Source of the DNA: a virus
Direction: 5' to 3' (one strand)
DNA: 20,056 nucleotides
Virus record (IMG/VR): IMGVR_UViG_3300011114_000833
Coordinates: 1-20,056 of that record
Below the pieces are notes generated by a model that worked only from the letters and a program-made list of their open reading frames with translations, had not been told where the DNA came from and did not search any database. Positions 2,938-20,056 of the stretch are shown in pieces (the stretch's first letter is position 1; each line of letters starts with the position of its first letter). The position numbers were made by a program, and so were the translations under genes.

Positions 2938-2952
2938 CGAAACGGGGTCACG

Positions 2953-3405: not shown

Positions 3406-3410
3406 CACAA

Positions 3411-3426: not shown

Positions 3427-3449
3427 CGCTCTTCGACCGGAGATAGATC

Positions 3450-4487: not shown

Positions 4488-4493
4488 GGGCGT

Positions 4494-4519: not shown

Positions 4520-4521
4520 GT

Positions 4522-4560: not shown

Positions 4561-4576
4561 TCAAGGGAGGCACAAC

Positions 4577-5059
4577 ATGGCAGACTACTACACCTTCGGC
4601 GTCGTGCCTGCTGACATCGGGCGATACGTGCCGCGCTTCGCGTTCGACACGACCAGCGCGCCGACGCTGCTGCAGGCGGCAGACATCATCGACGACCACG
4701 CAGCCGACTTGTGCGCCTTCCTCTACGGCATGGGCGTCGCGGTGCAGGCGCTGAACAACAACCCGACGCTGGCGATGTATCGCACCTGTCAGCGGTACAT
4801 CCTGCTGCGGTTCTCGGCACAGGCCGCGCGGCTGCGGAATCAGAACAACATCACCCTAGCCGACCAACTCGACGAGCAGGCTGACGCGCTGATGAAGCGG
4901 CTGCGTGAGATCCCGCAGGACTTGGGCTCGACCCGTCCGATCTCGGCAACGTCGGCGAACATCATGCATTCGAATGCCGACTACCCCGGCGACATCTATC
5001 GCGCGTCGATCACGTCAGGGTCACGCCTGGCGATCAACGCTGCCGTCGACAAGATGTGA
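4577..5059 (+). CDS. Head-tail connector / adaptor-like protein
   Basis: A 160-residue protein with an excellent ribosome site (AGGGAGG) before its ATG. The middle is helical, for example LLQAADIIDDHAADLCAFLY and the segment ending in RLRNQNNITLADQLDEQADALMKRL. Small helical proteins in this slot between major capsid and tail completion genes usually close the portal (Mu gp36 / HK97 gp6 type adaptors). No unique motif was recognised, so the function is from position, size and predicted helicity. It leads with a ten-base gap into the gpG-like gene. Confidence 0.45.
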   Translation: MADYYTFGVVPADIGRYVPRFAFDTTSAPTLLQAADIIDDHAADLCAFLYGMGVAVQALNNNPTLAMYRTCQRYILLRFSAQAARLRNQNNITLADQLDEQADALMKRLREIPQDLGSTRPISATSANIMHSNADYPGDIYRASITSGSRLAINAAVDKM

Positions 5060-5069
5060 GGGGGTCGAC

Positions 5070-5729
5070 GTGTCAAGCTTCAATCTGATACTCTACGACG
5101 AGACCGGCAAGGCGACGGGCGCGCTAGAAGCGGCGATCCGCAACGCGAAGGATTGGAAGGCCTTCTGGGCGGGCAAGGATGGGCCGATCAGCACCCTGTG
5201 GGCTGAATCGCGCAAGGTCATGTTCGCGACCGAAGGGCAGTCAACGGGCGCCGACTGGCCGAAGTACACGCGGCAGGAGCAGCGCTACTGGCTTCCGATC
5301 AAGCGGTGGTCGCTAGGGGTCAAGAAGATCGCGACGGGCGGCATCCTGCGTTGGACCCCGACGCCCCGGTCGTCGACGCCAGCGGCGCACGAACGGCTCT
5401 ACCCGTCGATGACCGTGACGAACCACCCGAACTACGTCTACGACGTCAGCGGCACGCGGGTCGAACTCGGCACGTCGCTGGCCTACGCGCGCAACCACAA
5501 TCTCGGCATCGGCGCCTACACGCGGCGCACGTCGAAGAAGAAGGGCGGCAGCGTCACGATCCCCACCCCGAAGCGCCCGCTGGTGCGGTTCGGCAAGCCG
5601 TTCGCGGACGGGGTGCAGCAGGAATTGAACCGCACGGCGCTGATGCAGTCGGCGGGCAAGAAGGTCGGCATCACGTCGACGGGCTTGGCTGACCGGATTA
5701 GCTTCGCCCGCGCGCAGGGTCGCCCGTGA
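5070..5729 (+). CDS. Tail completion / virion morphogenesis protein, Mu gpG-like
   Basis: The start is taken as GTG 5070, preceded by GAGGGGG at 5058-5064, giving 219 residues; the frame is open further left but that would overlap the previous gene. The order of landmarks fits the gpG/phage virion morphogenesis family: an early Trp-rich segment with EGQSTGADWPKYTRQEQRYW, a middle block ending in DVSGTRVELGTS, then LAYARNHNLGIGAY, and a basic PKRPLVRFGKPF near the end. In this family the protein joins or completes heads and tails. Neighbours agree: connector upstream, tail terminator-like gene downstream with a 4-bp overlap. Confidence 0.6.
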   Translation: MSSFNLILYDETGKATGALEAAIRNAKDWKAFWAGKDGPISTLWAESRKVMFATEGQSTGADWPKYTRQEQRYWLPIKRWSLGVKKIATGGILRWTPTPRSSTPAAHERLYPSMTVTNHPNYVYDVSGTRVELGTSLAYARNHNLGIGAYTRRTSKKKGGSVTIPTPKRPLVRFGKPFADGVQQELNRTALMQSAGKKVGITSTGLADRISFARAQGRP

Positions 5730-6337
5730 TCGCCGGTACCGCGAACGGCGCGCAGGTCGTGGCGAACACGGCGAAGGCGCTTGTGCTGGCGAACTGGTCG
5801 ACCATCTGCGACAGCGCGTGGCTGACGGCGATGGGTGCGCCTGGCCTGCCTGCGCCGGTGTCGAACAACATCTTCACGTCGCAGCGTTCACTCTTCACTG
5901 CCGAGTCGCAGCCGAAGGTCGGGCTGACGGTCATTCGCACCGACGGGCTAGTGACTGACGCGCTGGGTGCGATGGATCAAACGCACGAACTTGAAGTGTC
6001 GGTCTGCTCGGATTGGGGATACTACGACGGCACGGGGGCGCACCCGTTGACGACGGTGCAGCCGTTCACGATCGAGGCCTACGAAACGGCGGTGCGGGCC
6101 TACGTCGAAGGCATCGTCATGATCCTGACGTCGCCGACCTACGGCTTCGTGAACCTTGACGCCCGCAACTACACGACCCCCGGCTACGTCTACACGGGGA
6201 TCTACAACTGCCTTCCTGCGTCGGGTCTGACGCCAGTCGACTTCGTGGTGGGCGAAGACGACACCGGGCAGACGTTGATTCAACAGACCGTTCGTGCTTC
6301 TATTCAGGTGCTTCAGCGCCGCAGCCTAGCAAGGTAG
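5726..6337 (+). CDS. Tail terminator-like protein
   Basis: A 203-residue protein whose GTG start overlaps the previous stop (GTGA). Part of the central region, HELEVSVCSDWGYYDGTG and AVRAYVEGIVMIL, looks like an alpha/beta fold in which a long helix packs on a sheet, as in tail terminator proteins (lambda gpU / Mu gp37-like). The family is not certain. The position between tail completion protein and tube protein is where the terminator lies in many siphoviruses. A four-base gap separates it from the tube gene. Confidence 0.42.
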   Translation: MIAGTANGAQVVANTAKALVLANWSTICDSAWLTAMGAPGLPAPVSNNIFTSQRSLFTAESQPKVGLTVIRTDGLVTDALGAMDQTHELEVSVCSDWGYYDGTGAHPLTTVQPFTIEAYETAVRAYVEGIVMILTSPTYGFVNLDARNYTTPGYVYTGIYNCLPASGLTPVDFVVGEDDTGQTLIQQTVRASIQVLQRRSLAR

Positions 6338-6341
6338 AACA

Positions 6342-7541
6342 ATGGCAACTCAGTACCTGATCGCGAGTAACACAAGCGCCGTCTACATCAAGACGCAGTC
6401 GTCGCTCGGCGCCTTCGACGACCCGACCCCTGCGATCGTGCCTACGCCTGGCGCTGCGCCCTTATACACCGGCACGAACGCGGTGCGGGTGGTCGGCACG
6501 CCGAAGTTCACGCCGCGCGGCGCGGGCATCATTCAGCGGACTGACATCTACACCCCGTACGGAGGCGGTCAGGCGGCGGTCACGGGCGGCATCGGGTGGG
6601 ACATCACCCTGCAGACCGAGTTCTTCTGGCGCTTCGACGAGGCGGTCGGCGGCGCGTCGCAGTACATCACGACGAACCAGTCGCAGCTGTCTGCCTTGTG
6701 GCTTGCGTCGCCGTGGGCGATCACGCTGTTGAACACCAGCACCGACACGCTGCTGACGGTGCAGCCGGACTTCACGGCGAACCACGTGCGGGTCGCGACG
6801 ACCGGCACCGAGTACGTGCAGCCGTTCAGCATCGTCTATGAGGAATCGAACGGCAAACGATACGAGGCCTTCGACTGCGTCTGCGTGCCGAAGATCAGTT
6901 GGGAGAGCGGCGGCAAGATGATGCTCGACTGGACGATCAAGGGCAAGTGGCGCCCGGTCACGAACAGCATCAACGCGCCGGATCTGGTGCCGGTCTACCC
7001 CGAGCAGTACGCGACCGCGAAGCCGCAGCCCCCGCTTATCGGTCAGAACGCGACGATGGCGCTGACGGGCTTCTTCGGGCCTGACACGAACGCGCTGTCA
7101 AAGGTGACGGTCGACACCGGATGGGCGATCAGCGACGTCATGGACACGCGGCAGGCCTACGGGTTCGGGCTCGGCTTCATCGCCCTGACGACCTACCCGA
7201 CGATCGCGGTCGAAGTGGCGAACTTCGCCGAAGGCACCGCAACGCAGGTCGGGCCGCCAGTGGTTCCGCAGGTCGGTCAGCCCGACTGGACTGCCGCCCA
7301 GGCGAACACGATCTACGCGGGTCAAACGGGGTCGGGCGGCGTCGCAGTCGGCAGCGCCCTGACGGTCACGCTGACGATCGGCACCGACACCATCGTCTTC
7401 ACGCTGAACCTGCCGCAGCTGATCGAATGGCCTGCGCCTGGCGACGCGAACGGCTACCGCAACATCGGGCTGAAGTTCGGCGGCATACCGAACAACGCGC
7501 AGACGACCGTGATGTCGATCCTCTTCAACTCCGTCACCTAA
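6342..7541 (+). CDS. Major tail tube protein (probable)
   Basis: A 399-residue beta-rich, Thr/Gly/Ala-rich soluble protein directly before the chaperone pair, the normal place of the tail tube gene in long-tailed phages. No sheath gene is present, so the tail is likely non-contractile. The ribosome site AAGGT is five bases from the ATG. The C-terminal 100 residues (AGQTGSGGVAVGSALTVTLT and after) may be an added Ig-like or surface domain, since simple tube proteins are usually 150-250 residues. A hairpin with a TTCG loop follows the stop codon, as with the capsid gene, consistent with high expression. The call is from position and composition. Confidence 0.55.
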   Translation: MATQYLIASNTSAVYIKTQSSLGAFDDPTPAIVPTPGAAPLYTGTNAVRVVGTPKFTPRGAGIIQRTDIYTPYGGGQAAVTGGIGWDITLQTEFFWRFDEAVGGASQYITTNQSQLSALWLASPWAITLLNTSTDTLLTVQPDFTANHVRVATTGTEYVQPFSIVYEESNGKRYEAFDCVCVPKISWESGGKMMLDWTIKGKWRPVTNSINAPDLVPVYPEQYATAKPQPPLIGQNATMALTGFFGPDTNALSKVTVDTGWAISDVMDTRQAYGFGLGFIALTTYPTIAVEVANFAEGTATQVGPPVVPQVGQPDWTAAQANTIYAGQTGSGGVAVGSALTVTLTIGTDTIVFTLNLPQLIEWPAPGDANGYRNIGLKFGGIPNNAQTTVMSILFNSVT

Positions 7542-7546
7542 CCCCC

Positions 7547-7560
7547 GCCCCTTCGGGGGC
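7547..7560 (+). terminator. TTCG-loop hairpin after the tail tube gene
   Basis: GCCCC (7547-7551) and GGGGC (7556-7560) form a perfect 5-bp stem with a TTCG tetraloop, six bases after the stop codon. No U-run. Probably partial termination or mRNA 3' end protection after a highly expressed gene. Confidence 0.45.
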
Positions 7561-7590
7561 ACTCCACCACCTTCTTCGCAAGGGCAACGC

Positions 7591-7971
7591 ATGGCAATCG
7601 AGTTCGTCGAACAGCACCGCATCACGGTCAAGAGCAAAGGTCAGACTGGCACGCTGCTAGCGCGTGAGCCTAACGCGTTGGAGGGCGCCCGCTACATGGC
7701 AGCGCTGCAGCGGCATGGGGTAGGGCTACGGGAGACAGACCCCGACGCCTTCGAAGCCACCATCGCGCTGCACGTCGGGCTGCTGGTGTCGTGCGTGCAG
7801 GGCAGCGAAGACTGGTCGCCAGCGTTCCCCTCTGACGGCACCGAAGCGGAGCGCCGCGCGTGGCTGCTGCGGCTGTCGTGGGCTGACGTGTCACCCATCG
7901 CGACTGCGGTAATGGCGCTCGGCTTCCCCCCTACTTCAGCCGGGTCGTCTGGCGAGACTACGCCCGGCTAG
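7591..7971 (+). CDS. Tail assembly chaperone, zero-frame product (lambda gpG-type)
   Basis: A 126-residue, mostly helical acidic protein with a good ribosome site (AAGGG) before its ATG. It sits between tube and tape measure genes, where almost all long-tailed phages have a chaperone pair linked by frameshifting. The last 13 or so residues after GFPP look unstructured (TSAGSSGETTPG), as expected for the termination product, whereas the -1 frame from the same point reads a protein-like segment. The known family role is to coat the tape measure during tail assembly. The slippery site at 7926-7932 supports the assignment. Confidence 0.7.
   Translation: MAIEFVEQHRITVKSKGQTGTLLAREPNALEGARYMAALQRHGVGLRETDPDAFEATIALHVGLLVSCVQGSEDWSPAFPSDGTEAERRAWLLRLSWADVSPIATAVMALGFPPTSAGSSGETTPG
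7926..7969 (+). promoter_or_regulatory. Predicted programmed -1 ribosomal frameshift site with stem-loop
   Basis: CCCCCCT at 7926-7932 is an X XXY YYZ heptamer in the correct phase: zero-frame codons CCC and CCT, re-pairing as CCC and CCC after a one-base slip. Five bases later a stem begins: AGCCGGG (7938-7944) pairs perfectly with CCCGGCT (7963-7969), with an inner GTCT/AGAC stem and a GGCG loop. Frameshifting would join the chaperone frame to the following frame and make a protein of about 242 residues. Spacer and stem fit known -1 signals. Not tested experimentally. Confidence 0.65.
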
Positions 7972-7973
7972 TC

Positions 7974-8318
7974 ATGACGCACGGGTTCCGCTGCTGGGAG
8001 TGCCCCGACGCAACCCGCTACGAGAGAGGCTGCACGATGGGTTATCGACAGGGGCTAGGGCACGACAGCATGACACCCCTGCCGAAGACCTGCCTAGTGC
8101 TTGTCGACGAACCTGCGGGCTTCTGGTCGGCGAACAAGTTCGGCAAGATGATCGAACGCGGGTCGCCGCAGATCGCCCTGCGCGACATGTCGCACGCGCA
8201 ACTTGAACTAGCCGAAGTGGTGCAATACGAGCTGCAGGAAGGCGCGCAGGCCTACGACGATCAACGCGCCAAGTCAGCCGAGCGCATGGCTGCGATGTTG
8301 GAGGGTCTGAAGCGATGA
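7974..8318 (+). CDS. Tail assembly chaperone T-type extension, made by -1 frameshift
   Basis: The reading frame has an ATG at 7974, but it is open back past 7932 and that upstream part reads a sensible YFSRVVWRDYARLVM, so the likely product is a fusion with the upstream chaperone (about 242 residues), not a separate protein. There is no ribosome site worth the name before 7974; the two-base gap also argues against independent initiation. The extension carries RCWECP, then a single Cys in RGCTMG and one in LPKTC, a possible zinc site, and ends in a helix around AYDDQRAKSAERMAAML. In lambda the GT fusion binds tail tube subunits while G coats the tape measure. The stop overlaps the tape measure start (ATGA). 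Confidence 0.6.
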   Translation: MTHGFRCWECPDATRYERGCTMGYRQGLGHDSMTPLPKTCLVLVDEPAGFWSANKFGKMIERGSPQIALRDMSHAQLELAEVVQYELQEGAQAYDDQRAKSAERMAAMLEGLKR

Positions 8319-10207
8319 GCAGCGTAGCCGGTGCAGTAGTAACGATCGACGGCGACAGCAGCGGCCTTGTCAGCGCGCTTCAGAAGGGTGAGAAGGGGCT
8401 TGCTGACGTCAAGCAGGGCGCGCGCAAGCTGTCAGACCAGTTGCGCGAGGTCGCCGACGACGCCGACAAGGCAGCCGGGGCGATGATTCAGAACATCGGC
8501 GGGCCGGGTGCGATCAAGGCGATCGCCGGTGTCGGCATCGCGATGGGCGTGGCGAAGGCAGGCGTCGAAGCCTTCATGGATTCGTCAGAAAACCTGTTCA
8601 AGTCCTACGGCGACGAGGGCGTGGCGGCGTGGGATAAGGCAGAGAAGGGGCTGTTCGCGATCAAGGGTGCCTTTGCTGAAGCGCTGCTAGGCGGTCGCGA
8701 CTTGGCAGAGAACACCGAACGACTGAACATGCTCTTCTCGTTCACGAAGGTCGCGGTTGACCTGGCGCTGCTGCCGCTGAAGTTATTGTCTGACGCTATG
8801 TTCGCGCTGGTCGGCAACACGAAAGATCAGACCATCTATCAGCGCGACCTGCTCGACATCGAGCAGAAGTACAGCATCGCAGTCGGGCAGACGACGACGG
8901 CGCTGCAGCAGTCGAACATCGCCTACGAAGCGATGACGATCAACTTGGGCAACCTGCTACGGTCGAAGCAACAAGATGCTGCGATCAGCCTGCAGGCTGC
9001 GGTCGATCAGATCGACATGTTTCGGGCCGTCAATCGCGAGTCAAAGGAGTTCCGCGCTAACGCCGAAGCAGACCATCAAGCGGCGATCGTGCGGGCTGAC
9101 GCGCTGCAGAAGGGGTTCGCATCAAAACTCGACGAAGCCGAACACGAACTGACCGTCGTCAACGACGGCGTGCGCCAGTCACAAGAAGAGATCAACCAAC
9201 GCGCACGCGAGATGCTGTCAGCAGACGTGACGTTTCAGCGGTCGCTGTACCGACAGCAGGAAATCGCGCGAACTCAGGCCTACGAAACGGCGGCGAAGCA
9301 GACCGAAGCAGAGAAGACCAGAGAAGAAGAACTGCTGACGCAGCGCGAGAACCTGCTGCAGCGGTACGAAGAGCTGCGAACCTTCGGTGAGGGGAGGTCA
9401 GCCCCGGCTGCGCCGCCGCCGCCGCCGCCGAAGCCAGTCGACGACACGGTGTACGCGGTGCAGCAGGCCGAAGGCGGCTACGCGAAACTGACGAAGATTC
9501 AGTACGACGCGCTCGACAAGATGCAGCAGCAGACGGGCGACTACTCGCAACGCATCATGGAGATGACGCAGGTCGAGTTCGACGGCCAAGCGGCGCTTGG
9601 CGACAAGATGTACTTGGCAGAGATCGACATGCAGACGAAGCGGGCTGAAGCGGCTGACAAGTTCCGTGCCGAGCAGGCAGCGAAGCTGAAGGCAGAGCAG
9701 GACATCAACGAACACGAAAAGGCCGAGTACGACGCGAAGGAGCTGAAGCGCGTTCAGGACTTGGAAAAGGCGAAGGCTGACGAACAGAGGGCAGCGATGG
9801 CGCTGGTCTTCAACCTGGCGGTCATTCAAAGCGGCAAGATGCTGGCGCAGGCGATCGTCGGCAACAAGAAGATGAGCGAGGTTGCACGGGCTGCGATGGG
9901 CAACGTGGCGTCAGGCCTCGGCGACATCGCGATGGTCAAGTCAGCCGAGTACGCCGCCGACGGGTTGTGGCCACAGGCGTCAGGCATGGCAATCGCAGGC
10001 ACGCTAGGCTACACCATCGCGGCAGCGCTTGGCGCCGACAAGAAGGCGAATGCAGGGCCGCCGACGGAGCGCCAGCAGCCGGTGCAGAACTACGCGTACA
10101 ACCTGCGGATCGACTCTGCCTTCGCCGACAGCGAAAGCATCAGCCGTCGATTCGCGCAGATGCAAGAAGGCGCGCGGCAACGCGGCCTCATCACGGCGGC
10201 GGCATAA
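8315..10207 (+). CDS. Tail tape measure protein
   Basis: A 630-residue protein starting in an ATGA overlap with the chaperone gene and preceded by GGAGG. The N-terminal region has an Ala/Lys-rich helix, then a hydrophobic segment around residues 60-88 (AIAGVGIAMGVAKAG). The middle is long coiled coil with many Gln, Glu, Arg and Lys. A Pro run (about 362-372) is encoded by a CCG repeat. A hydrophobic C-terminal part follows, with MALVFNLAVI (about 494) and MAIAGTLGYTIAAALGA (about 557-575). That is the usual design: a helical ruler with membrane-active segments. The rule of about 0.15 nm per residue would give a tail near 95 nm, an estimate only. It follows the frameshifted chaperone pair, as expected. 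Confidence 0.8.
   Translation: MSSVAGAVVTIDGDSSGLVSALQKGEKGLADVKQGARKLSDQLREVADDADKAAGAMIQNIGGPGAIKAIAGVGIAMGVAKAGVEAFMDSSENLFKSYGDEGVAAWDKAEKGLFAIKGAFAEALLGGRDLAENTERLNMLFSFTKVAVDLALLPLKLLSDAMFALVGNTKDQTIYQRDLLDIEQKYSIAVGQTTTALQQSNIAYEAMTINLGNLLRSKQQDAAISLQAAVDQIDMFRAVNRESKEFRANAEADHQAAIVRADALQKGFASKLDEAEHELTVVNDGVRQSQEEINQRAREMLSADVTFQRSLYRQQEIARTQAYETAAKQTEAEKTREEELLTQRENLLQRYEELRTFGEGRSAPAAPPPPPPKPVDDTVYAVQQAEGGYAKLTKIQYDALDKMQQQTGDYSQRIMEMTQVEFDGQAALGDKMYLAEIDMQTKRAEAADKFRAEQAAKLKAEQDINEHEKAEYDAKELKRVQDLEKAKADEQRAAMALVFNLAVIQSGKMLAQAIVGNKKMSEVARAAMGNVASGLGDIAMVKSAEYAADGLWPQASGMAIAGTLGYTIAAALGADKKANAGPPTERQQPVQNYAYNLRIDSAFADSESISRRFAQMQEGARQRGLITAAA
9411..9430 (+). repeat. CCG/GCC triplet run in the tape measure gene
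   Basis: Twenty bases of unbroken GCC/CCG triplets encode six Pro in a row within APAAPPPPPPKP. It probably forms a stiff linker between the coiled coil and the second half of the tape measure. Such a run may vary in length between isolates. Confidence 0.7.
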
Positions 10208-10208
10208 C

Positions 10209-11081
10209 ATGGCGAACTTCCCACTGGCGACATGGCAGGTGACAGCCCCTGCGTTCACGGTAGCGAACTCGGTCGGGTCGGTGTCGGTGCCTGCAGCTGC
10301 AGACAAGTGGGGGTTCGGCGTGTCGTCGCTGACAGCACCCTACCCTGCCGACATTGATACGGCGGCCTATTACCTGGCGGACGCGATCGGGAATGCGGCA
10401 CTGCCGGGGCCGCCGCCTGTCTCGCTCGGCATCGTGGCTGCGGCGACGTTCAACTACACCCCCGGCACGAACCCCTCGACGTCACCCCTGACAATGACGC
10501 TGGCAACGACATCGGCGTCGGCGATCACGCTGACCTTCACGACCTTGACAGATGCGGCGATCTACGGGTTCGCGTCAACGACGGTCAGCATTGGCGGCAG
10601 CGTGCAGACGACCACAACGGGCTACAACGTGGGGGGCGTGTGGGCACCGTGCGGGGTAGCAGGGGATCTGCGCCGCACCACCCGTCAGCGGGCCGCTGCG
10701 TCGTCGTCAGACATGTCTGGCGTGTCGACCGACGTGGTCAACTGGGGCGAAGTCGCCGATCTAGAGTTCCTGACGTCGGTCTTCCCTGCGGGCAACCTGA
10801 CGCGGTGGTTCGCGGCAACGCAGATCTACGCCACGGCAGCGGGTCGCAACGTCGCCGACCCGAACAACACGTTAGAGGGGCTGCTGCAGGCGGCAGCGAC
10901 GGGGGTGACGTTCCGCCTCTACCGCCAAGCGTCGACAACCAGCGGCACAACTCCGACCACCTACGTCGAAGCGAAGATGCCGACGATCTCGTCGAAGTCG
11001 GCGGCTCAAGACTACACGTCAGCGGTCGACGAACCCCGGCTGTGGTCGACTGCGGGCATGGTCTTTCGGGGGTCGACCTAA
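10209..11081 (+). CDS. Tail protein downstream of the tape measure (distal tail-like position)
   Basis: A 290-residue protein starting at the ATG two bases after the tape measure stop. The frame is open further left, but that part overlaps the tape measure gene. It is beta-rich, with low charge in the N-terminal 130 residues (long Thr/Ser/Ala/Val stretches such as TLATTSASAITLTF) and a more mixed C-terminal half. I do not recognise the family. By position, a distal tail or tail-tip protein is expected here, but no typical Dit motif is visible. The stop overlaps the next start (TAATG). Confidence 0.4.
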   Translation: MANFPLATWQVTAPAFTVANSVGSVSVPAAADKWGFGVSSLTAPYPADIDTAAYYLADAIGNAALPGPPPVSLGIVAAATFNYTPGTNPSTSPLTMTLATTSASAITLTFTTLTDAAIYGFASTTVSIGGSVQTTTTGYNVGGVWAPCGVAGDLRRTTRQRAAASSSDMSGVSTDVVNWGEVADLEFLTSVFPAGNLTRWFAATQIYATAAGRNVADPNNTLEGLLQAAATGVTFRLYRQASTTSGTTPTTYVEAKMPTISSKSAAQDYTSAVDEPRLWSTAGMVFRGST

Positions 11082-13669
11082 TGGCCTCCGACCGCGTCGT
11101 GATCGTTCGGGTGCTTGGCATCGGGCTTGTGCCGGGGTTTAGTACACCAGCAGCGTTCACGTCGCGGGCGGGCCTGTCGTACCTGACAGACGAAGTGCCT
11201 GGCGTGGTCGTCGACGTGGGGTCGCAGTTGTCGTCGAACATCGACCTCTTCGGCGCGCTCGGCAGCGACCCGACAACGACCTTCACGCTGCTGTCGACGG
11301 CAGTGACGTCGCAGTTGACGCTGTCGCGTGGCAAGCGCCCGCTGCTCGACGCGGACGGAGCGAACGTCACGGTGACGGACTACATCCCGCCGTTCGGGGT
11401 GGTCAACAGCGGCTTCATCATCGTGACCGACACGACGAACGCGTCGCCTGGCATGATGCTGCGGGTGGCGAACACGGTCTTCAGAGTCGTCACGGTGTGG
11501 TCGTCGACGTCGCTGCGGGTGCAGCGCAAGTGGGGCTCGGCTGACGTGCCGATCCCTATGGGCGTCACGGGCTTCGGTATCTTCGGCGCGACCGTCTACG
11601 ACGTGACACCCGGCAACCCGACTGGCGGCATCGAATCGCTTCCCGTTGTGATCTCCACTGCGGCACTGTCAGCGACGTCGCAGGGGCAAGAAGAGATCAT
11701 CTTTCGCGGCATCGTCAACCGGGCGTCGACCGACACGTCAGCGCGCGCGCAGAACCGGATCAAGGTCGACTGCGGGTCGCTGATGGCGTTCGTCAAGTCG
11801 GCGAAGTTCACGCCCGCCCAGGGCGGCACGCGCGTATTCCCGAAGCGGGCTGAAGACGCCACGCAGGCGATCACGAACTCGGCGATGAACGTCGACTTTT
11901 GGTGGCAGATCGTGCACGATCAACGGCTCTACGGCACGCCCTTCGAAGTGACGGGCGACCCCGGCAACGTGCGGGTGCCGCTGATGCAGATTCGGAAGGA
12001 TGCATTTGGCGGCACGGTGGCGCTCGACCCCGATCAGCCGTGGGCCTACGAAACGATCGACGACTTCCCCGTGCTAGTCGCGCAGGTGTCGACGCGGTAC
12101 CGGCTCGACCCCGCGAACCCGACCTACATGAATTCAAACACATTCCTGTCGTCGTTCCGTGAAGGTTGGATAGGCAGCGGTGGCGTCGGGCCTGCGCTAG
12201 ACCCTTCAATCACGCGCATTGGTGTGTACGGGGCGGGGACTAACCTGTTCGGCCAGGAGGTCACGACGACGTACCCTATCGGCTACAGCTGGCAGACACA
12301 AGATGCGTGGTTCAATCCTGAAAGTTTGGGCGAGACGACCTTCATCGCGAAGACGTTCAGCGACCTGATCGTCGACTTGCTACTCGGCACGATCAACGGC
12401 GACACCGAAAACGACCAGTTCGACTTCACGACCGGCTGCAGGGCCGCGACTGAAGCTGCGTGGCTGCCCTTCGGCGTGCAGGCGGGCGTGTCAGTCGTGG
12501 ATGACATAATCGACATACCGTCGCTGATCGCTGCGACAGCAGCGCCGGTGGCAGCCCTGCAGCCAGAAATGCCTGGCACCCCTATGGGCATCAGCGAAGC
12601 GGTCTTCGGCAGCAATGCAGGCGTCATGCTGCCCTACATGCACGCGGACGCGAAGACGGTCGGCGACGTACTAGAGGAGATCCTGAAGCGGTCGGGGATC
12701 TACATGGTCTACGACAAGTGCAAGTTTCGCTTCGGTCGGTGGACGCAGCGCCCGTCGACGCCTACGGTGGTCAACGACACCGGACTTGCCGAACCTAGGG
12801 TGTCGCTGACCTTCGACCGCAACAACTGCGTTCAGACGGCTCTTATGAAGATCTGTTGGAATCTGCAGGGCGACAGCCCCGTGACGCAGTCGGTACCGGT
12901 CAACAACGTCGAACTCGGCATTGGGGCGCTCGGCAAGGTGGTCAACTTGTCGCATTGGATTCCGATGACGTCGAACGAGTACCTGCCGAACAGTCAGCTG
13001 TTCGCGAATGCGGTCAACACGGTCACGCGGTTTTCGCAAGCGGCGGCGATGGTCGAAGTGGTCTACCGTGACGACGTCTTCGACCTTGTCGTCGGGCAGC
13101 AGGTGGCGTTCAGCAGCGACTACGTGCCGAACGCTGACGGGGGCATGGGCGTCACCCTGGCGAGGGGCTTCGTGTTGAAGGCTGCTCGGTCGTGGCAGAC
13201 GCCGACGACGGCCTACACGATCGCCCTTCCCGGCTACCTGTCGCCTATCAATCGCATCTCGGTCTTCAGCTGCAGCGGCACGGTCGTCAGCGTCAGCGGC
13301 AACGACATTGTGATCGCGCCGAACGACTTCACGCAGCCCCCGTCACGGGCAGAGATCGGCGCCCCGACCAGCGATGCAGCTGCGTTCGAACTGTCGCTGC
13401 AACTGCAGGGCGGGCCGATCAACCTTGTGCTGCGCGACCAGTACGGCACGGCGCAGGGGGCGGCTGATTTTATTGCTTCGGTCAACGTGGCGACGAACAC
13501 GCTGGTCAACGTGCCGATTATGGCAGCGGTGGCAGTGCCGGGCGACGTGATCGTGCTAGCACGCGCGACAGGGCAAACGTCGGTTGATACGCTGTGGGAT
13601 GCCTTCCAAGCCGACACTGCGGGCAACGTGACAGGCAGTGCGGCGCTAGCCTACAAGTGGGTGCTCTGA
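11081..13669 (+). CDS. Large tail-tip / hub-like protein
   Basis: An 862-residue protein, the largest gene in the window. The ATG at 11081 overlaps the previous stop (TAATG) and follows a GGGGG ribosome site; the frame is open to 10640 but that upstream part lies inside the previous gene. The N-terminus (VVIVRVLGIGLVPGF) and the region near residues 525-550, HADAKTVGDVLEEILKRSGI, followed by FRFGRW, suggest a tail hub or baseplate-like part. The last 150 residues are Val/Ala/Thr-rich, perhaps a surface domain. A central role in the tail tip (baseplate hub, host contact or ejection) is inferred from size and position; no motif proves it. Confidence 0.45.
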   Translation: MASDRVVIVRVLGIGLVPGFSTPAAFTSRAGLSYLTDEVPGVVVDVGSQLSSNIDLFGALGSDPTTTFTLLSTAVTSQLTLSRGKRPLLDADGANVTVTDYIPPFGVVNSGFIIVTDTTNASPGMMLRVANTVFRVVTVWSSTSLRVQRKWGSADVPIPMGVTGFGIFGATVYDVTPGNPTGGIESLPVVISTAALSATSQGQEEIIFRGIVNRASTDTSARAQNRIKVDCGSLMAFVKSAKFTPAQGGTRVFPKRAEDATQAITNSAMNVDFWWQIVHDQRLYGTPFEVTGDPGNVRVPLMQIRKDAFGGTVALDPDQPWAYETIDDFPVLVAQVSTRYRLDPANPTYMNSNTFLSSFREGWIGSGGVGPALDPSITRIGVYGAGTNLFGQEVTTTYPIGYSWQTQDAWFNPESLGETTFIAKTFSDLIVDLLLGTINGDTENDQFDFTTGCRAATEAAWLPFGVQAGVSVVDDIIDIPSLIAATAAPVAALQPEMPGTPMGISEAVFGSNAGVMLPYMHADAKTVGDVLEEILKRSGIYMVYDKCKFRFGRWTQRPSTPTVVNDTGLAEPRVSLTFDRNNCVQTALMKICWNLQGDSPVTQSVPVNNVELGIGALGKVVNLSHWIPMTSNEYLPNSQLFANAVNTVTRFSQAAAMVEVVYRDDVFDLVVGQQVAFSSDYVPNADGGMGVTLARGFVLKAARSWQTPTTAYTIALPGYLSPINRISVFSCSGTVVSVSGNDIVIAPNDFTQPPSRAEIGAPTSDAAAFELSLQLQGGPINLVLRDQYGTAQGAADFIASVNVATNTLVNVPIMAAVAVPGDVIVLARATGQTSVDTLWDAFQADTAGNVTGSAALAYKWVL

Positions 13670-15078
13670 TGGCGTGGAAGAAGCTCGACGACGAACTGAC
13701 TAGCCCGAACAGCGAAGAACCCCTGTCTGCCTTCCTCGTGCGGGGGCTGACGCGCAACGTCAACAGCTACTCTACGGCGCTGACGCGGGGCGGCGCCTTC
13801 GCCTTCGCAAACGACACGATCCTGATGCAGTGGGCGTCGTACGATCAGCCGACCGGTTTCGTCTTCACGGTCGACGTTGGCATCGCGGCAACGCAGGTGC
13901 AGTTCGACATCGTCGGGGCAACGAAGACGGCGACGGCAGGCGGCACGCTGGTCGTGCGCCACCTTGACACCAGCACGCAGCGGTTCACGCCAGTCGCAGC
14001 CGACCAGTCACTGACAAGTCGCACGGTGTCGTTCGACTTTGTGTCGCCGACCACCGGGCTGCAGGGCTTCTTCATCGGGTGGCAGTCTGACGTCGGCGAC
14101 GACCTTGGGTGGGTGCGGGTGCGCGGCGGGGTAGAGAATCAGATCTTCTGCGACGAAGGCAACGGCGCCGGTTATTGGCCGTTCCCTGTCGGCTCAGGCC
14201 TTGGCACCGAAACGCACCTGCTGATTCGGATCGATCAGGTGACGAACAGCGGCAACGTGCAGCCGTCGGCTGACGCGCGGCGCGACTACCAGATCTGCTA
14301 CTTTCGCCACTTCAATGGCAGCAGCCCCGAAGGCACCTTTGTAATCTGGCCTGAACTCGACCAGACGCCCGCAGTGCTGCCGACGCGCTACGATGCAAGC
14401 CTGCAGATCCTAGGTCACGTCTTCGACCTCGGCTGCTTCAACCTGTGGTCGGTGTCGGCGACGACCACCGAAGTGCAGGTCGGCAACGCAGGCCTGCCGA
14501 ACGCCTACGACCAGACGACCGATCTGGGTTCGATCGCCCAGGCGCCGTCGAACTTCCTCACGCCGGTCATGCCGTCGCTGTCGAACATCCTGACAAGCCC
14601 CGGTCGATTCGGCCGAATCCTGCGCGCTGGCGACACCTTGTACTTCACCTTCGCGGTGCAGAACAGAGCTGCCTTTGGCGTGCAGGTGAACTTCCGCGCC
14701 TTCTCGATCAACCTGGCGCAAACGGCCTTCGACACGCCCGACTTCACCTTCGACGTGCTCGACAGCGCTGGCAACCCCGTCGGCACGCAGGTGCTGCTAT
14801 TGAAGCAGTCGGTGCCGCGCTACACGGCGCAGACGAGCTACGGCGCCACGGGCAGCAGTATGATCGCGGCGAACGGCGTCTACGGCAACGCGGACGAATG
14901 GGGGATGCGCGACAGTATGCCAGTCGTCGAAGTCATGCGCCCGACCCCGATCGCGATGCGGTGGGCGTCGAACACGTTGGAGGCGCTGACCGTTGGCGGC
15001 GTTGGCACCACGTACACGGGCGCGATCACCTGCACGTCTGACATCTACATCTACGCCTTCTTCAGCAGGCTCTTCTGA
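13669..15078 (+). CDS. Tail-tip protein of unknown family
   Basis: A 469-residue beta-rich protein starting in a TGATG overlap with the hub-like gene. It begins MAWKKLDDELTSPNSEEPL, then alternates hydrophobic strands and short loops, for example TGFVFTVDVGIAATQVQFDI and TVSFDFVSPTTGLQGFFIGW. No membrane segment, coiled coil or recognised enzyme motif is visible. It could be a structural tail-tip or receptor-contacting protein. The name is from position only. It leads into the next gene with another TGATG overlap, so the two are probably translationally coupled. Confidence 0.4.
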   Translation: MAWKKLDDELTSPNSEEPLSAFLVRGLTRNVNSYSTALTRGGAFAFANDTILMQWASYDQPTGFVFTVDVGIAATQVQFDIVGATKTATAGGTLVVRHLDTSTQRFTPVAADQSLTSRTVSFDFVSPTTGLQGFFIGWQSDVGDDLGWVRVRGGVENQIFCDEGNGAGYWPFPVGSGLGTETHLLIRIDQVTNSGNVQPSADARRDYQICYFRHFNGSSPEGTFVIWPELDQTPAVLPTRYDASLQILGHVFDLGCFNLWSVSATTTEVQVGNAGLPNAYDQTTDLGSIAQAPSNFLTPVMPSLSNILTSPGRFGRILRAGDTLYFTFAVQNRAAFGVQVNFRAFSINLAQTAFDTPDFTFDVLDSAGNPVGTQVLLLKQSVPRYTAQTSYGATGSSMIAANGVYGNADEWGMRDSMPVVEVMRPTPIAMRWASNTLEALTVGGVGTTYTGAITCTSDIYIYAFFSRLF

Positions 15079-15539
15079 TGGCCTTTACGGTACCTGCGAG
15101 TACACCTGCCCGGTCACCCTACCTCGTGCCGCCGAACGCGGTGCGCGCCGACGCTGTCAACAGCCTGCTGCAGCGCGACCGCTTCCTCTTCGCGACCCGT
15201 CGGCGGCTGATCTTCACGGGCGGCGCCTTCGACGCGACGCTGGCGACCTTTGTGACGCCCTTCTTCTTCGTTGCTCGCACGTCGGCGGTCGTGACCGGCA
15301 ACCTGTGGGTGGTCATCGCAGGCAACGAAGTCGAAGTGAAGGTCGACGAGTTCAATGTTGGCGCGTCGCTGACGCTAGGCGTGTCGGCGGGCGGCTTCGA
15401 AACGAACGCGCAGCTGCTGACGGGTATGCCTGCCGCGACAACGCTGGCGTTCAGCCTGTCGGTGCGGGCGACTGGCGCTGGCAACCTGTTCGGCGTGTAC
15501 ATCTTCGAAGAGATCCTAGCGGCGGGCGACCTGCCCTGA
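15078..15539 (+). CDS. Small tail-associated protein of unknown function
   Basis: A 153-residue protein coupled to the previous gene through TGATG. It has an N-terminal region rich in Pro, Ala and Arg (VPASTPARSPYLVPPNAVR), then strands such as FTGGAFDATLATFVTPFFFV and GNLWVVIAGNEVEVKVDEF. It ends with GVYIFEEI. No family was recognised. Its co-transcription and coupling with tail-tip genes suggest a virion or assembly role. Confidence 0.38.
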   Translation: MAFTVPASTPARSPYLVPPNAVRADAVNSLLQRDRFLFATRRRLIFTGGAFDATLATFVTPFFFVARTSAVVTGNLWVVIAGNEVEVKVDEFNVGASLTLGVSAGGFETNAQLLTGMPAATTLAFSLSVRATGAGNLFGVYIFEEILAAGDLP

Positions 15540-15560
15540 CCGCGCAACCTGTGAGGCCTC

Positions 15561-15971
15561 ATGTCAGTTGCCCTGCTATCATCTGTCCTGCACGCCCTAG
15601 TCGGCTGCCGCCTGTCGCCGTCGCGTGACGGGATTCTGATCGTGTCGCCTGGCGGGTCGTCGTACGACTTCGTGACGGTGCATTCAGACGAGGGCGAACT
15701 GCTGGCGGCTGTCAACGCGCTGGCGGCGGCGCTACGGGCTAGGGGCGCCATCGCTGCGGCTACGCCTGCGCCCGTCGTGCTGCCTGCGCCTGCGATGCCG
15801 CTGGCGTTCACGTCAGCCCTGCCCGTCGACTTCATCGACGTGCCGCCCGACACGATTATTCACGGCGGCAAGGTGACGCAGGTGCAGAAGGTCGACGCCC
15901 CGAAGTGGGAAGCGCCGAAGGTCGAACCCGTTGCGGGCGCCGTCAAGCGCCGGGCAAAGGGTGGCAAGTGA
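15561..15971 (+). CDS. Hypothetical protein between tail and lysis genes
   Basis: A 136-residue protein. Its ATG follows a modest GTGAGG ribosome site after a 21-base gap. The N-terminal half is an alpha/beta-like unit (ILIVSPGGSSYDFVTVHSDE then LLAAVNALAAALRARG); a Pro/Ala-rich linker follows, and the C-terminus is basic (VKRRAKGGK). Family unknown. Its stop codon overlaps the endolysin GTG start, so it is probably translated with the lysis gene. It may be a small tail or lysis-associated protein. Confidence 0.35.
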   Translation: MSVALLSSVLHALVGCRLSPSRDGILIVSPGGSSYDFVTVHSDEGELLAAVNALAAALRARGAIAAATPAPVVLPAPAMPLAFTSALPVDFIDVPPDTIIHGGKVTQVQKVDAPKWEAPKVEPVAGAVKRRAKGGK

Positions 15972-16741
15972 CCGCGCCTGACGCAGTAGTTTACAACACG
16001 ACGCGCGCAGGGGCTCTGTGGGTGCAGGCGCAGCTGCCGCCTCCCTTCTGCACACTGAACGTCACGACCCCTGCCTTCGCTGACGCGGTGGCGACCTTCC
16101 AAGCGGCGCGCGGCCTGACGGCTGACGGCAAGCTGGGGCCTGCGACGCTGGCGGCGATGGGGTACGGGCGACCGACTGCAGCTGCAGTCACGGGCGTCGT
16201 GACCGTCGACGCGCTGATCGCCACTGCCGAGCACGAAGCCGACCTGCAGGTGCGCGAGGAAGGCGGCATGAATCGCGGCGCGAAGGTCGAAGAGTACCAG
16301 CGGGCAGGCGGCCTAGGGCCGGGCGACCCGTGGTGCGCCGCCTTCGTTGCGTGGTGCGTCATGAAGTCGCGCCAACTCGACAAGCCCCCGACGTGGTGCA
16401 GCGGGTCTGCGATCACCACCTGGCACAAGGGGTCGAAGCGGGCAGGCGATGCCAGCACGACGCCGAACGCCCCCGACTTCAAGTCGAAGGTGCAGCAGGG
16501 GTGGGTCTGGGTGCGCGCGAAGGATCCGAAGGGCGCGTCTGACGCGTCGCGCGGGCTGTGGGTGCAGGGGCACTGCGGCATCGTGGTTGCCGTCGACATC
16601 GTGGGCTTCTACACGGTAGAGGGCAACACGAACGCGGCAGGGTCGCGCGACGGCGACGGCGTGTACCGCAAGTTGCACCGCTGGTCGGACTTGGCACAGA
16701 TCGCCCGCACTGTCGGGTGGTTCGATTCAACACACATCTGA
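15968..16741 (+). CDS. Endolysin: peptidoglycan-binding domain plus CHAP-type amidase/peptidase
   Basis: A 257-residue protein with start GTG 15968 in a GTGA overlap, preceded by AAAGGGTGG. Residues about 14-65 fit a PG_binding_1 domain (VQAQL, AVATFQAARGLTADGKLGPAT). From about residue 95 a CHAP-like domain follows: GDPWCAAFVAWC with the presumed nucleophile Cys123, GHCGIV with presumed His202, and VEGNTN with Glu218/Asn220. All three catalytic positions appear intact. It has no signal peptide, so export depends on a holin, which is encoded next. The protein would cut cell-wall peptide or amide bonds at the end of infection. Confidence 0.78.
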   Translation: MTAPDAVVYNTTRAGALWVQAQLPPPFCTLNVTTPAFADAVATFQAARGLTADGKLGPATLAAMGYGRPTAAAVTGVVTVDALIATAEHEADLQVREEGGMNRGAKVEEYQRAGGLGPGDPWCAAFVAWCVMKSRQLDKPPTWCSGSAITTWHKGSKRAGDASTTPNAPDFKSKVQQGWVWVRAKDPKGASDASRGLWVQGHCGIVVAVDIVGFYTVEGNTNAAGSRDGDGVYRKLHRWSDLAQIARTVGWFDSTHI

Positions 16742-16752
16742 CAGGGGCTAAC

Positions 16753-16995
16753 ATGCTGAAGTTCACGCATTCAAAGGGCAAGATCAACGCAGGCCTGACG
16801 TTCGGGGCGATCCTTGGCGCAGCGATCCCGATCATCGCCACGGCTGCCACTGGCGGCTTGGCGGCGGTGCCGGTCGCGATGTGGCTTGCGCTTGGCGGCG
16901 TCGTGTCGGGGCTCTTCGCGGGCAACGTGGAGATGAAGACGACGGTGGAGCGGGCGCTTGACGCTGACGCAGCGAAGATCAGCCGTGGCGAGTAG
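16753..16995 (+). CDS. Putative holin
   Basis: An 80-residue protein starting 11 bases after the endolysin stop with a ribosome site (AGGGG). A short basic N-terminus is followed by two hydrophobic segments at about 13-31 and 36-57, then a charged C-terminal tail. That pattern, plus its position right after an endolysin without signal peptide, suggests a two-segment holin that opens the inner membrane. No sequence family was recognised. The C-terminus overlaps the next gene. Confidence 0.5.
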   Translation: MLKFTHSKGKINAGLTFGAILGAAIPIIATAATGGLAAVPVAMWLALGGVVSGLFAGNVEMKTTVERALDADAAKISRGE

Positions 16996-17278
16996 CTTGC
17001 CGCCGACGGGCTCGGTCGAAGCGATCGTCAGCCGGGCGTCGGTCAGTCTGCCGACACTTTGGAAGGTGGTCTGGTCGATCACGTCGGTGCTAGCGGCGCT
17101 GATCTTGGCGCTGCTGTCGGTGCTCTACAACGGCGCGAAGGCCGAGTGGGTCGCGATGCGGAACGACGTGCGGCTGCTGCAGCAGACGGTCGCCGCGCAG
17201 CCGACTGGCGAGCAGTTCCGCGAACTGACGCACCGGGTCGACCTGATCGAACGGCAGGTCAACAGCTGGGATGAGTAG
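16985..17278 (+). CDS. Membrane-anchored coiled-coil protein, candidate spanin or lysis accessory
   Basis: The start is taken as GTG 16985, giving 97 residues; an upstream TTG at 16958 (with GGAG before it) is an alternative and would add nine residues. One membrane segment (about 26-48, VVWSITSVLAALILALL) is followed by a charged helix (KAEWVAMRNDVRLLQQTV, then FRELTHRVDLIERQV) that can form a coiled coil. This resembles inner-membrane spanin subunits or XhlA-type membrane proteins in topology. The gene overlaps the holin gene in another frame and ends the + strand operon. The function is inferred from topology and place in the lysis cassette. Confidence 0.42.
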   Translation: MASSLPPTGSVEAIVSRASVSLPTLWKVVWSITSVLAALILALLSVLYNGAKAEWVAMRNDVRLLQQTVAAQPTGEQFRELTHRVDLIERQVNSWDE

Positions 17279-17287
17279 GCTTGACGA

Positions 17288-17318
17288 CCTGCCAGCGGGC
17301 GATGTAGCCTGCCAGCGG
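17288..17318. repeat. Short direct repeat in the convergent junction
   Basis: CCTGCCAGCGG occurs at 17288-17298 and again at 17308-17318, a period of 20 bases. It lies in the 62-bp gap between the + strand lysis operon and the - strand genes. No strong terminator hairpin with a U-run is visible in the gap. It could be a chance duplication or a protein-binding site. Confidence 0.4.
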
Positions 17319-17340
17319 TCGCTGCGTTGCGTTCCCCCTA

Positions 17341-18366
17341 CTACTTAGGAGGGTGAAGGTTACGCTCACTTGTGACGCGGCGACCTTCCCGCTTCATGAC
17401 CGCCAGCAGTCGGCGCTCTTCGGCTTCGATGGCCTCGGCACGGATCGCCTCTTCGAGCAGCATCTTCGCCGTCGGAATGGTGGGGTCACGGTGCGGGTTG
17501 GGTATCGGGCGCCCGGCGAACCTGGCAGCCCCTTCCTGCGGCTGCTGCGCGTCTGCCTTCTTGCCCTGCTTCCGCTTCATGCGGAACGCCTTGGCTTCGG
17601 CGGCGTCGACGACTTCAGCGACGATCGAAGGGCAGGCGTCGGCGCCTGACCGTGCAGCTGCACGCTGCTGCGCCTTGCGTTCGCGCTCCCGGCGGTTCTT
17701 CTCTTCGCGCTTGGCGGCTGCCCGTGCAGGGTTGGCGTTGACCCCGGCAGTGTACTTCGCTTGCGCCTTGCGGGTCAGTTCTAGCCGTCGGGCTGCACGC
17801 GCTTCAGCGGTCACGTGCGCGGCTGCCTTCTCTGCCGCCAGCGCCGTGACGCGAGCAAGCGCGACCTCCCGTTCGACTTCAACTGGCGACTTGCCCTGCG
17901 CCTGCGCAACCTCTTCGATCGTGTCGCGGTGCGCCTTGCGGGCCTGCAGCGTGTCGAGCGACCACGGTTTCGTTGCGCGCTTGATCGTGATGTCTAGCAC
18001 GGTCGGCGTGGCGTAGTTCCGGTGGCGGTCACCCTTGTGTCGGGGCGCCGTGTCGATGGTCGCAAGCACGTTCTCGGCTGTCGACTGCTGCGACCGTTTG
18101 TGGCTCTGATACTGCGACCGGTTCTTCAACAGGTTCTTCGCCTGCTGCCGTTCGCGGGTGGTGTGATTGTGGTCGACATTCGCCAGTTCAACGGAGGCCT
18201 CCCACTCGGTCAGCACTGGGATCGGCACGGTGGCGAACTGCGGCGACAGCCACCACCCCCGCGCTGCGACTAGGCGACGCATCGCGACAGCTTCGGCGCG
18301 CATGTACTGCGGGCCTTCGTCGTTTGACCTTCTGCTGCTGGCGAGTGTCGGGGCGTTCTGTGCCAT
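17341..18366 (-). CDS. Charged helical protein of unknown function
   Basis: A 341-residue protein. The ATG at 18366 is chosen because AGGA lies nine bases before it on the - strand; the frame is open to 18507, but that part overlaps the methyltransferase gene and is Pro/Ser-rich. An N-terminal part (about 20-95) with ARGWWLSP and a TTRERQQAKNLLKNRSQYQ segment faintly resembles phage terminase small subunits of the type with a TTRERxxA helix. The rest is rich in Ala, Arg, Glu and Lys and probably forms long helices, with very basic stretches around AAKREEKNRRERERKAQQR. It may bind DNA. A small terminase role is only a weak guess, as the gene is far from the head genes. It follows the methyltransferase by 28 bases, so they are likely one operon. 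Confidence 0.42.
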   Translation of the reverse strand: MAQNAPTLASSRRSNDEGPQYMRAEAVAMRRLVAARGWWLSPQFATVPIPVLTEWEASVELANVDHNHTTRERQQAKNLLKNRSQYQSHKRSQQSTAENVLATIDTAPRHKGDRHRNYATPTVLDITIKRATKPWSLDTLQARKAHRDTIEEVAQAQGKSPVEVEREVALARVTALAAEKAAAHVTAEARAARRLELTRKAQAKYTAGVNANPARAAAKREEKNRRERERKAQQRAAARSGADACPSIVAEVVDAAEAKAFRMKRKQGKKADAQQPQEGAARFAGRPIPNPHRDPTIPTAKMLLEEAIRAEAIEAEERRLLAVMKREGRRVTSERNLHPPK

Positions 18367-18394
18367 GTTCGATCCTGTCGGTGGGGGAGGGGGG

Positions 18395-20056
18395 TTAGAA
18401 GAGGGCGAGTTGTGCGCCTGGCGCTTCGGCTGCTGCGGCTTCAGCGTCGACGGTGTCGACGGCGAACTGACAGCGGGCTTCGGCGATGGCGACGTGGGCG
18501 GGGTCAAGGTCGATTCCGACGAAGCGGAACCCCTCCATCAGCGCGCCCTTGCCGGTGCTGCCACTGCCCATGAAGGGGTCTAGCACCAGACCGTCGGGCG
18601 GGGTGACAAGGCGGGCAAGGTACCGCATCAGGTCGGTGGGCTTGACGGTCGGATGGAAGTTGCGAACGGTGTCGGCGGTGCGGCCTGCGCCTGCGCGGGG
18701 CGACTGCAGGCCTGCGGTGTCGTCGTCACGGTCGACGGCTTCGGCGCCGGTGCGTGCGGGCAGGTGGTCGCAGCCCTCTTCGCGGTCGGTTCGTGAGGCC
18801 TTGGTGCAGTAGAAGAACCTAGCCGCGCTGCCGCTGTCGTTTCGGAAATGTTCGGGCTTGCTTACTCCGCCAACGCCAAACATTGAGGCATCACGGCGAC
18901 CATCTCCTCCGCCCGACATTCCGGGCCTATCCGCAGGAAACCCCGCCACCACTTCGTCGCTACCGTCCGTGATAAGGTTCGCAGGCCACCTTCCAACAAC
19001 GGTTTTCTCGCCTGATTTCACATTTCTGCCACCGCCCGTTGTCTCAAAGCCTCCGCTCACCATCGTCAGATCGTAGGTTCGTTCCTCCGTTCCCACCCTG
19101 CACCCGTCGATGTTCAACGCACCTGTTCCATACTTCAGCACAGTCGCTGCAACGGTGCCGTCGAGGGGCTTTCGCGCCACGATCACGGGTTCCCATGCGG
19201 GCTTCAGTGCGGTGCCCCAGCCTTGCCAGTCGGTCAGGCCTCCGCAGACTTGGCAGACTTCAGGCGGCGCCATTCCTCGCGTTTGTGTTCGCCGTTGTTC
19301 GGGAACAGTTCCAAGTTGCACAGCCGGTTGTCGTGCGGGTCGTGGTTGCGATGATGCACGACCTCGGTGCGCGTCAGGCACCGCCCGATCGACGCTGCCA
19401 TGATCAAGCGATGTTCCATGATGTAGCCATCCTTCCGCGCCATCGGAAGGAACTCGACTGGGCATCGAACGTACTTGATCGGCTTGTAGTTGCCCTTCTT
19501 GCGCCAGTACGTCACGCCCCCCTTCCATGCAGGGTTCAATGCTCCCTGCAACTTCGGGTTCGGGCCGCGCTTGCCGTAACTTCGATGCGCCGTGTTGCGA
19601 CACGCGCGAGAGCAGTACCTGCCCTTGCCCTGTTGCAGTTGGGCTGGTCTGCGGTACATCTGCGACGCGCAGACGTGACAAGTTGTGTTTGGTCGTCGGT
19701 TGGTTTGCATGGTCGTATGGTAGCGCACCCCTGCCGCACTTGCAACCAAAATTGAGGCTCTTCGGGAACCCTGTCGAGTACAGCCAGCAGACCACGTCGC
19801 GGATCTCCCATCCCGCGTCTTCGATGGCGACCGTCAGCCGGTGAAACGTGCGCGACCCGCCGAACGCCAGCAGGTGCGCGCCGGGCTTCGCAACCCGCAG
19901 CGCCTCCCGCCAGAACTCTTCGCCTGGCACGCCCCGATCCCACCCCTTGCCCATGAACGACAGCCCGTACGGCGGGTCGCTGACGATGCTGTCGAAGTGG
20001 TCGGCAGGGTAGTCGCGCATCACGTCGCGGCAGTCGCCTGCGTGCAGCGTGTAGCG
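18395..20056 (-). CDS. DNA methyltransferase, beta class (N6-adenine/N4-cytosine), 5'-truncated
   Basis: The frame is open to the right edge and enters as RYTLHAGDCRDVM, the usual start region of phage methylases, so the true start lies beyond the window. Motif IV, SDPPYGLSFMGKGWD, comes first and the SAM-binding motif LDPFMGSGSTGKG comes late, with NFHPTVKP before it; this order defines the beta class. It ends in the common phage ending QLALF. Residue numbers here count from the GTG at 20023: DPPY 16-19, FMGSGST 484-490. Between GFPKSLNF and WQGWGTALKPAWEP about 170 residues are inserted where an HNH gene sits in another frame. CKC (94-96) and CQVC (257-260) bracket the insert. The segment encoded at 18840-19140 is distinctly AT-richer. 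Likely role: protecting phage DNA from host restriction. Confidence 0.8.
   Translation of the reverse strand, partial: RYTLHAGDCRDVMRDYPADHFDSIVSDPPYGLSFMGKGWDRGVPGEEFWREALRVAKPGAHLLAFGGSRTFHRLTVAIEDAGWEIRDVVCWLYSTGFPKSLNFGCKCGRGALPYDHANQPTTKHNLSRLRVADVPQTSPTATGQGQVLLSRVSQHGASKLRQARPEPEVAGSIEPCMEGGRDVLAQEGQLQADQVRSMPSRVPSDGAEGWLHHGTSLDHGSVDRAVPDAHRGRASSQPRPARQPAVQLGTVPEQRRTQTRGMAPPEVCQVCGGLTDWQGWGTALKPAWEPVIVARKPLDGTVAATVLKYGTGALNIDGCRVGTEERTYDLTMVSGGFETTGGGRNVKSGEKTVVGRWPANLITDGSDEVVAGFPADRPGMSGGGDGRRDASMFGVGGVSKPEHFRNDSGSAARFFYCTKASRTDREEGCDHLPARTGAEAVDRDDDTAGLQSPRAGAGRTADTVRNFHPTVKPTDLMRYLARLVTPPDGLVLDPFMGSGSTGKGALMEGFRFVGIDLDPAHVAIAEARCQFAVDTVDAEAAAAEAPGAQLALF
19234..19710 (-). CDS. HNH homing-type endonuclease nested inside the methyltransferase gene
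   Basis: A 158-residue protein starting at ATG 19710 (MQTNRRPNTT); earlier TTG/GTG starts at 19749 and 19728 are possible, and no ribosome site is convincing for any. A zinc-ribbon-like N-terminus has Cys11, Cys14, Cys33 and Cys37. PAWKGG follows, then PVEFLPMARKDGYIMEHRL, a hallmark of phage HNH endonucleases. The HNH site is EVVHHRNHDP (His119, His120), DNRLCNLELF (Asn132) and EHKREEW (His142). The stop at 19234-19236 falls just before the methyltransferase resumes its WQGWGTALKP. It lies entirely in the +1 frame of the methyltransferase gene, same strand. GC is lower (about 55-60%) than in neighbouring genes, in line with recent transfer. Its family spreads by nicking or cutting DNA lacking the insert. 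Confidence 0.78.
   Translation of the reverse strand: MQTNRRPNTTCHVCASQMYRRPAQLQQGKGRYCSRACRNTAHRSYGKRGPNPKLQGALNPAWKGGVTYWRKKGNYKPIKYVRCPVEFLPMARKDGYIMEHRLIMAASIGRCLTRTEVVHHRNHDPHDNRLCNLELFPNNGEHKREEWRRLKSAKSAEA

Follow-up and report, generated by a model that had tools for sequence, protein, structure and literature searches.

The window analysed here is a whole viral contig of 20,056 bases, and the methylase, the insertion and the HNH features described below lie on its minus strand. The host DNA methyltransferase frame (18395..20056; 553 aa) matches PF01555 in two stretches (E 5.6e-23); its 5′ end is cut off, the first residues of the methylase being absent because the contig ends at 20056. 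The catalytic motif DPPY (motif IV; residues 27–30, 19967..19978) is nearly invariant in 41 homologs, the GFPKS motif (19757..19771) is conserved in methylase alignment A2 and in the homologs L213 and L209, and the SAM-binding motif DPFMGSGSTG (residues 493–502, 18551..18580) is seen in the translation and in alignment A2. DPPY and FxGxG are both present in the order IV then I, as in the N6/N4 methyltransferases of PF01555, and the AlphaFold model of the methylase core has a pLDDT mostly >90. In the rest of the window (76-18387) there are ten large non-methylase ORFs, which belong to no PHROGs family, and a search for near relatives of the contig gave no match among 50,697 phage records.

A second ORF (19234..19710; ATG at 19710, 158 aa and a stop) is hidden in the methylase frame, in phase +1 relative to it, and encodes an HNH endonuclease (HNH_3, E 5.7e-7). 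The HNH_3 catalytic domain covers residues 100–139 of the HNH frame (19294..19413), and H120, H123, N128, N132 and H142 are invariant; Pfam and the HNH alignments thus agree on an HNH domain with the active-site residues of an HNH homing endonuclease. The N-terminal region contains a zinc-ribbon-like set of cysteines (CxxC...CxxxC; C11, C14, C33 and C37, 19600..19680), invariant in HNH alignments A1 and A3. Homologs of the ORF are 45–72% identical and found in the same phase, and the AlphaFold model of the HNH protein has a pLDDT of 84, although neither a PDB sequence search nor a fold search with that model gave a significant match. The sequence-only reading of this locus had held that the HNH gene is real, with a full active site and a zinc-ribbon-like start, that the methylase frame runs across it with no stop (it is open from 20056 to 18395), and that the insert separates the catalytic motif DPPY upstream from the SAM-binding motif downstream; all of this is borne out.

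The limits of the insertion were set by alignment with homologs that lack it (L213, L209 and other short-loop homologs), a comparison which that reading had proposed. L213 (GFPKSHNGPWGGTALKP) reads GFPKSHN-GPWGGTALKP at the site, with a left flank 85.5% identical to the window over 200 nt, and L209 reads GFPKSHNLKGEWQGWGTALKP. The insertion element, placed just after GFPKS, occupies about 19229..19750 and is 522 nt long, i.e. 174 codons of the methylase frame, so that the length is a multiple of three, as had been claimed; of the earlier limits, 19234-19760, the higher one misses by a few bases. A domain of ~100 aa (FTEWMRSTGLTSKQIDEATGTNMGGHYLTAASQPAI) is found in frame in the GFPKS loop of many HNH-free homologs (L003-L024), with no significant Pfam match.

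Viral contigs, together with one genome for each prokaryote species, were searched first with the HNH protein and then with its aligned homologs; such searches ignore the second frame, and the sample is therefore unbiased as to whether the host frame is open. After identical copies were dropped, 89 non-redundant HNH loci were obtained, the viral part being at most the best 80 of 194 matches. The HNH is nested in the methylase family of the window in 73 of the 89 loci, always in phase host+1 and with both methylase halves in one frame, and these loci come from very diverse viral contigs, among them a 484-kb phage and MAG contigs. Four loci are of the ShiLan type (ShiLan, Mantra, Starcevich and Cr-LKS3; phase host+2, different site), and in the remaining 12 the HNH is not nested within an open frame. 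The nested loci form two classes, which comprise about 41 and about 32 loci after the reassignment of L197, which lacks the C-terminal splice block, from the first to the second following the stop-count test. Class I, or ‘naked’, to which the window belongs, has the HNH after GFPKS with no splicing motifs; in class II the HNH lies in an intein-like insert (YG^C...TGN^SGFPKS), still in phase +1. Among the other relatives, L165 has its HNH far away from any methylase gene, and in L092:272-1347 and L201:1839-3929 a methylase gene has a non-nested HNH at its 3′ end, an arrangement which is possibly a step before nesting.

Selection on the host frame was assessed with a null model in which the codons of each HNH are permuted among synonymous positions, keeping both the protein and the codon usage. 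Across the HNH of the 73 nested loci no host-frame stop is observed, compared with about 497 expected. A host-frame stop results when AAN, AGN or GAN follows a codon with T in third position; in the nested loci a third-position T is found before such at-risk codons in 0 of 3219 cases and elsewhere in 1858 of 7481. The controls behave as expected: the 12 non-nested relatives contain 112 stops in the same frame (120 expected), and the third frame of the nested loci contains 660 stops and is open in 0/73. The host frame has therefore been selected to stay open, and the joint probability of its openness across the family is vanishingly small. For the window alone, P is 0.0075 under synonymous shuffling, so the 1–2% chance estimated from the sequence was about right for a single locus. 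Stops or frameshifts in insert-bearing homologs, which had been named as the finding that would speak against dual coding, occur across the HNH in none of the 73 +1-phase loci, down to 34% GC, while free-standing relatives contain many stops. The view that the endonuclease enters without breaking its host gene, by way of an open second frame, is supported by the same 73 stop-free homologs.

The amino acid sequence encoded by the host frame within the insert does not seem to matter. The neutral expectation for its identity between pairs of loci follows from the HNH protein plus the no-stop rule; over the HNH stretch the observed identity was 0.275 (neutral 0.268) for pairs with 50–60% HNH identity and 0.325 (neutral 0.308) for pairs with 60–70%. 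No extra purifying selection on the peptide was seen in that stretch except in very close pairs, where the excess is due to shared descent, and the frame is therefore selected for openness and not for sequence. G, S, Q, R and E are frequent in the peptide, which is more polar than the rest of the methylase (GRAVY -1.01 compared with -0.45), and residues 109–265 of the methylase are modelled as disordered (AlphaFold pLDDT <50).

In the methylase frame the HNH start codon has a CxC pair before it (CKC; methylase-frame residues 105 and 107, 19736..19744), and the insert closes with a CxxC pair (CQVC; residues 268 and 271, 19244..19255). Of the naked-class loci in which both flanks are present, 30 carry the two pairs together, seven carry neither and two carry a single pair (Fisher p 4e-6), a count that includes L088, whose CGC precedes a shifted site. 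The closing CxxC is present in 33 of 41 naked-class loci and in 0 of 32 intein-class loci. The HNH tails over this CxxC vary by group (SAKSAEA, GVANR, AKQSLTQV), so of the two frames it is that of the host which is conserved here. A search for a pre-existing cysteine ribbon at the empty site, in 194 distinct loops, found two pairs in HNH-free loops only in L220, L229 and L239, in the other order (CxxC...CxC), and the pairs therefore seem to travel with the element. The two pairs possibly form a metal clamp which closes the loop; seven naked-class loci lack both of them, so a clamp would not be essential, and the AlphaFold methylase model, with a pLDDT of about 50 at the cysteine pairs, leaves a metal site unresolved.

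Concerning the interpretation, we consider it probable that the window carries a mobile HNH homing-endonuclease element in the variable post-GFPKS loop of a phage amino-methyltransferase, lying in the +1 frame, with the methylase translated straight through. The methylase would accommodate the additional ~150 residues as a loop that is polar and disordered and whose ends may be pinned together around a metal ion by the CxC and CxxC cysteines. Translation of the HNH would start internally, at the nested ATG, and this putative nuclease would cut insert-free alleles near the GFPKS codons, repair then copying the element in. Both the methylase and the HNH product are presumably translated. A crude Shine–Dalgarno-like motif is found at only about a quarter of the nested HNH ATGs, and the window has none close enough. 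Around the nested ATG (19710-19730 in the window, CTACCATANNNCCATG), the nucleotides are conserved in several loci; read in the methylase frame, they give PYxHE.

An alternative is that the HNH is made as a methylase–HNH fusion by +1 frameshifting and not as an independent protein. In many loci the open HNH frame extends some way 5′ of the ATG, and the nucleotide conservation around the ATG would also fit; but in eight naked-class loci an HNH-frame stop lies 0–15 nt before the ATG, so that hardly any room is left for a shift. This favours internal initiation and makes frameshifting improbable. Equally little weight is given to the idea that the methylase is decaying and non-functional, with the nested HNH as the only selected product. 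Phage methylases are often dispensable, as stated for the relatives of ShiLan (PMC11855218), the host-frame sequence within the insert is unconstrained, and two methylases are disrupted: L100 in its start region, and L098 (1102-2701), where stops break the gene into two ORFs around the HNH, so the nested open state can be lost or bypassed. Host-frame stops are nevertheless selected against throughout, the methylase core is conserved on both sides of the insert, and its motifs are intact in most loci.

It is very improbable that the methylase is made without the insert, whether because the latter is a self-splicing intron or because the ribosome bypasses it. Phage group I introns often carry HNH genes. 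However, the window has no Rfam match at the gathering score, 19100-19900 has none even up to E 1, and 15 related loci have no Rfam intron match; the roughly 45 nt outside the HNH ORF are too little for a group I core; and splicing or bypassing would remove the need for an open frame, contrary to the stop counts. Practically negligible is the explanation that codon bias and high GC in the HNH gene keep the second frame open incidentally, with no selection on the methylase frame: the window on its own (60% GC) is not a very rare case, but GC content is no explanation because nested loci at 34–42% GC are open too (L188, L169, L192, L131 and L132 at 34–39%, and L101), and the stop counts of the family and of both controls refute it.

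The intein splicing blocks A/B and F/G, and a C-terminal Asn with a Ser/Thr/Cys junction, are absent from the insert of the window. In class II the C-terminal block TGN^S is present in 31 of 32 loci and the N-terminal block in most. Generic intein models match class II weakly (Hint_2, E 0.0064 in L101; an intein-bearing NCBIfam model, E 3.5e-5 in L160), and the intein call therefore rests mainly on the splice-junction motifs. The earlier proposal that no splicing is needed holds for the class of the window and not for the 32 relatives in intein-like inserts. Two loci contain additional insertions: the intein-class methylase of L124 also has a ShiLan-type HNH (4300-4700; HNH_3, E 8e-10) in phase host+2, i.e. 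two hidden nucleases in one gene, and L085 has a second out-of-frame insertion in the same methylase (4852-5259; phase host+2, host frame open), which encodes a zinc-finger protein from a different family (CEYC...HHDDYNKPLEIRWVCRRCH) with no Pfam match.

In quick trees based on short alignments, the patristic distances of the HNH and the methylase are uncorrelated (r 0.02), and changes of host-context class number six on the HNH tree (shuffled 22) and 19 on the methylase tree (shuffled 19–22). An HNH tree unrelated to the methylase tree fits an element moving between methylases. This lack of correlation, together with the close uninserted relatives, is the patchy distribution described for the ShiLan type, and the HNH element is probably mobile.

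Taking the family as a whole, we lean, with due caution, towards a widespread family of HNH homing endonucleases specialised for the +1 frame of phage methylases, whose ORF is shaped by the need to keep the host frame open while the host amino acid sequence is irrelevant. The insertion would be made harmless either by a cysteine clamp that loops the peptide out or by an intein that splices it away, in which case splicing and homing would be encoded in overlapping frames of one element. What had been a curiosity of a few mycobacteriophages would become a broad, testable rule: a coding sequence can take in a mobile gene without harm and without splicing, provided that the codons of that gene avoid host-frame stops, and the element, which is probably mobile, spreads without breaking its host gene. 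In the stop counts and the neutral peptide sequence, selection for openness as such can be seen, a rare situation among overlapping genes. If a nuclease is indeed hidden in the intein-like inserts, homing and splicing would share the same DNA in different frames.

Several known systems resemble the locus in part. In group I introns of phages that contain HNH ORFs (I-HmuI type), a conserved phage gene likewise houses an HNH homing endonuclease; these introns are removed at the RNA level and need no open host frame, whereas no intron was found in the window. Inteins with homing endonucleases occur in the same host gene family, for example at YG^SGFPKS in ShiLan gp65, and the 32 intein-like inserts with relatives of the window HNH lie at that site, a few codons from the site in the window. 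In known inteins the endonuclease is in frame, whereas the class II relatives have the HNH in the +1 frame of the intein, and the window insert differs from homing-endonuclease inteins in having no splicing motifs. Pacc40 gp60 likewise has an out-of-frame HNH-like insertion in a phage methylase (PMC11855218), from which the window is set apart, going by the description of gp60, by a different methylase family and position.

The closest system is the ShiLan domain, reported by Arsenault, Gosselin and Gogarten (2025; PMC11855218) as an out-of-frame HNH in a mycobacteriophage methylase with no stops, for which no intron or intein was found. It is known from Mycobacterium phage ShiLan gp65 and its relatives (PMC11855218, PMC9957025), and the term has been reused for phage Applejack (PMC12613952). 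The ShiLan domain and the window share an out-of-frame HNH in homologous phage DNA methylases with a stop-free methylase frame, no detectable intron or intein function, and a patchy distribution. The principle was thus known already, and the sequence-only suggestion of an unusual survival strategy is upheld by the selection for openness but not as something new. The differences are in phase (host+2 in ShiLan, Mantra, Starcevich and Cr-LKS3; host+1 in the window), in site (downstream of ALKPSYEPV in ShiLan; upstream of it in the window, after GFPKS(L/H)N, which reads GFPKSLN there), and in the ends of the ORF (a GTG 18 bp into the insert and usually a TAAC end in ShiLan; an ATG 40 nt in and a TGA stop in the window). 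The window HNH is also of a different subfamily, about 35% identical to the ShiLan HNH and with one N-terminal zinc ribbon but no C-terminal one; its type has flanking cysteine pairs in the host frame, and its hosts extend far beyond mycobacteriophages. A preprint on actinobacteriophage inteins cited in PMC11855218 (10.1101/2025.01.02.630785) may overlap part of the novelty. What is new relative to ShiLan is the phase, the site, the HNH subfamily, the wide viral range and a quantified selection test with controls, as well as the neutral host-frame sequence, the cysteine pairs and the related HNH inside intein-like inserts.
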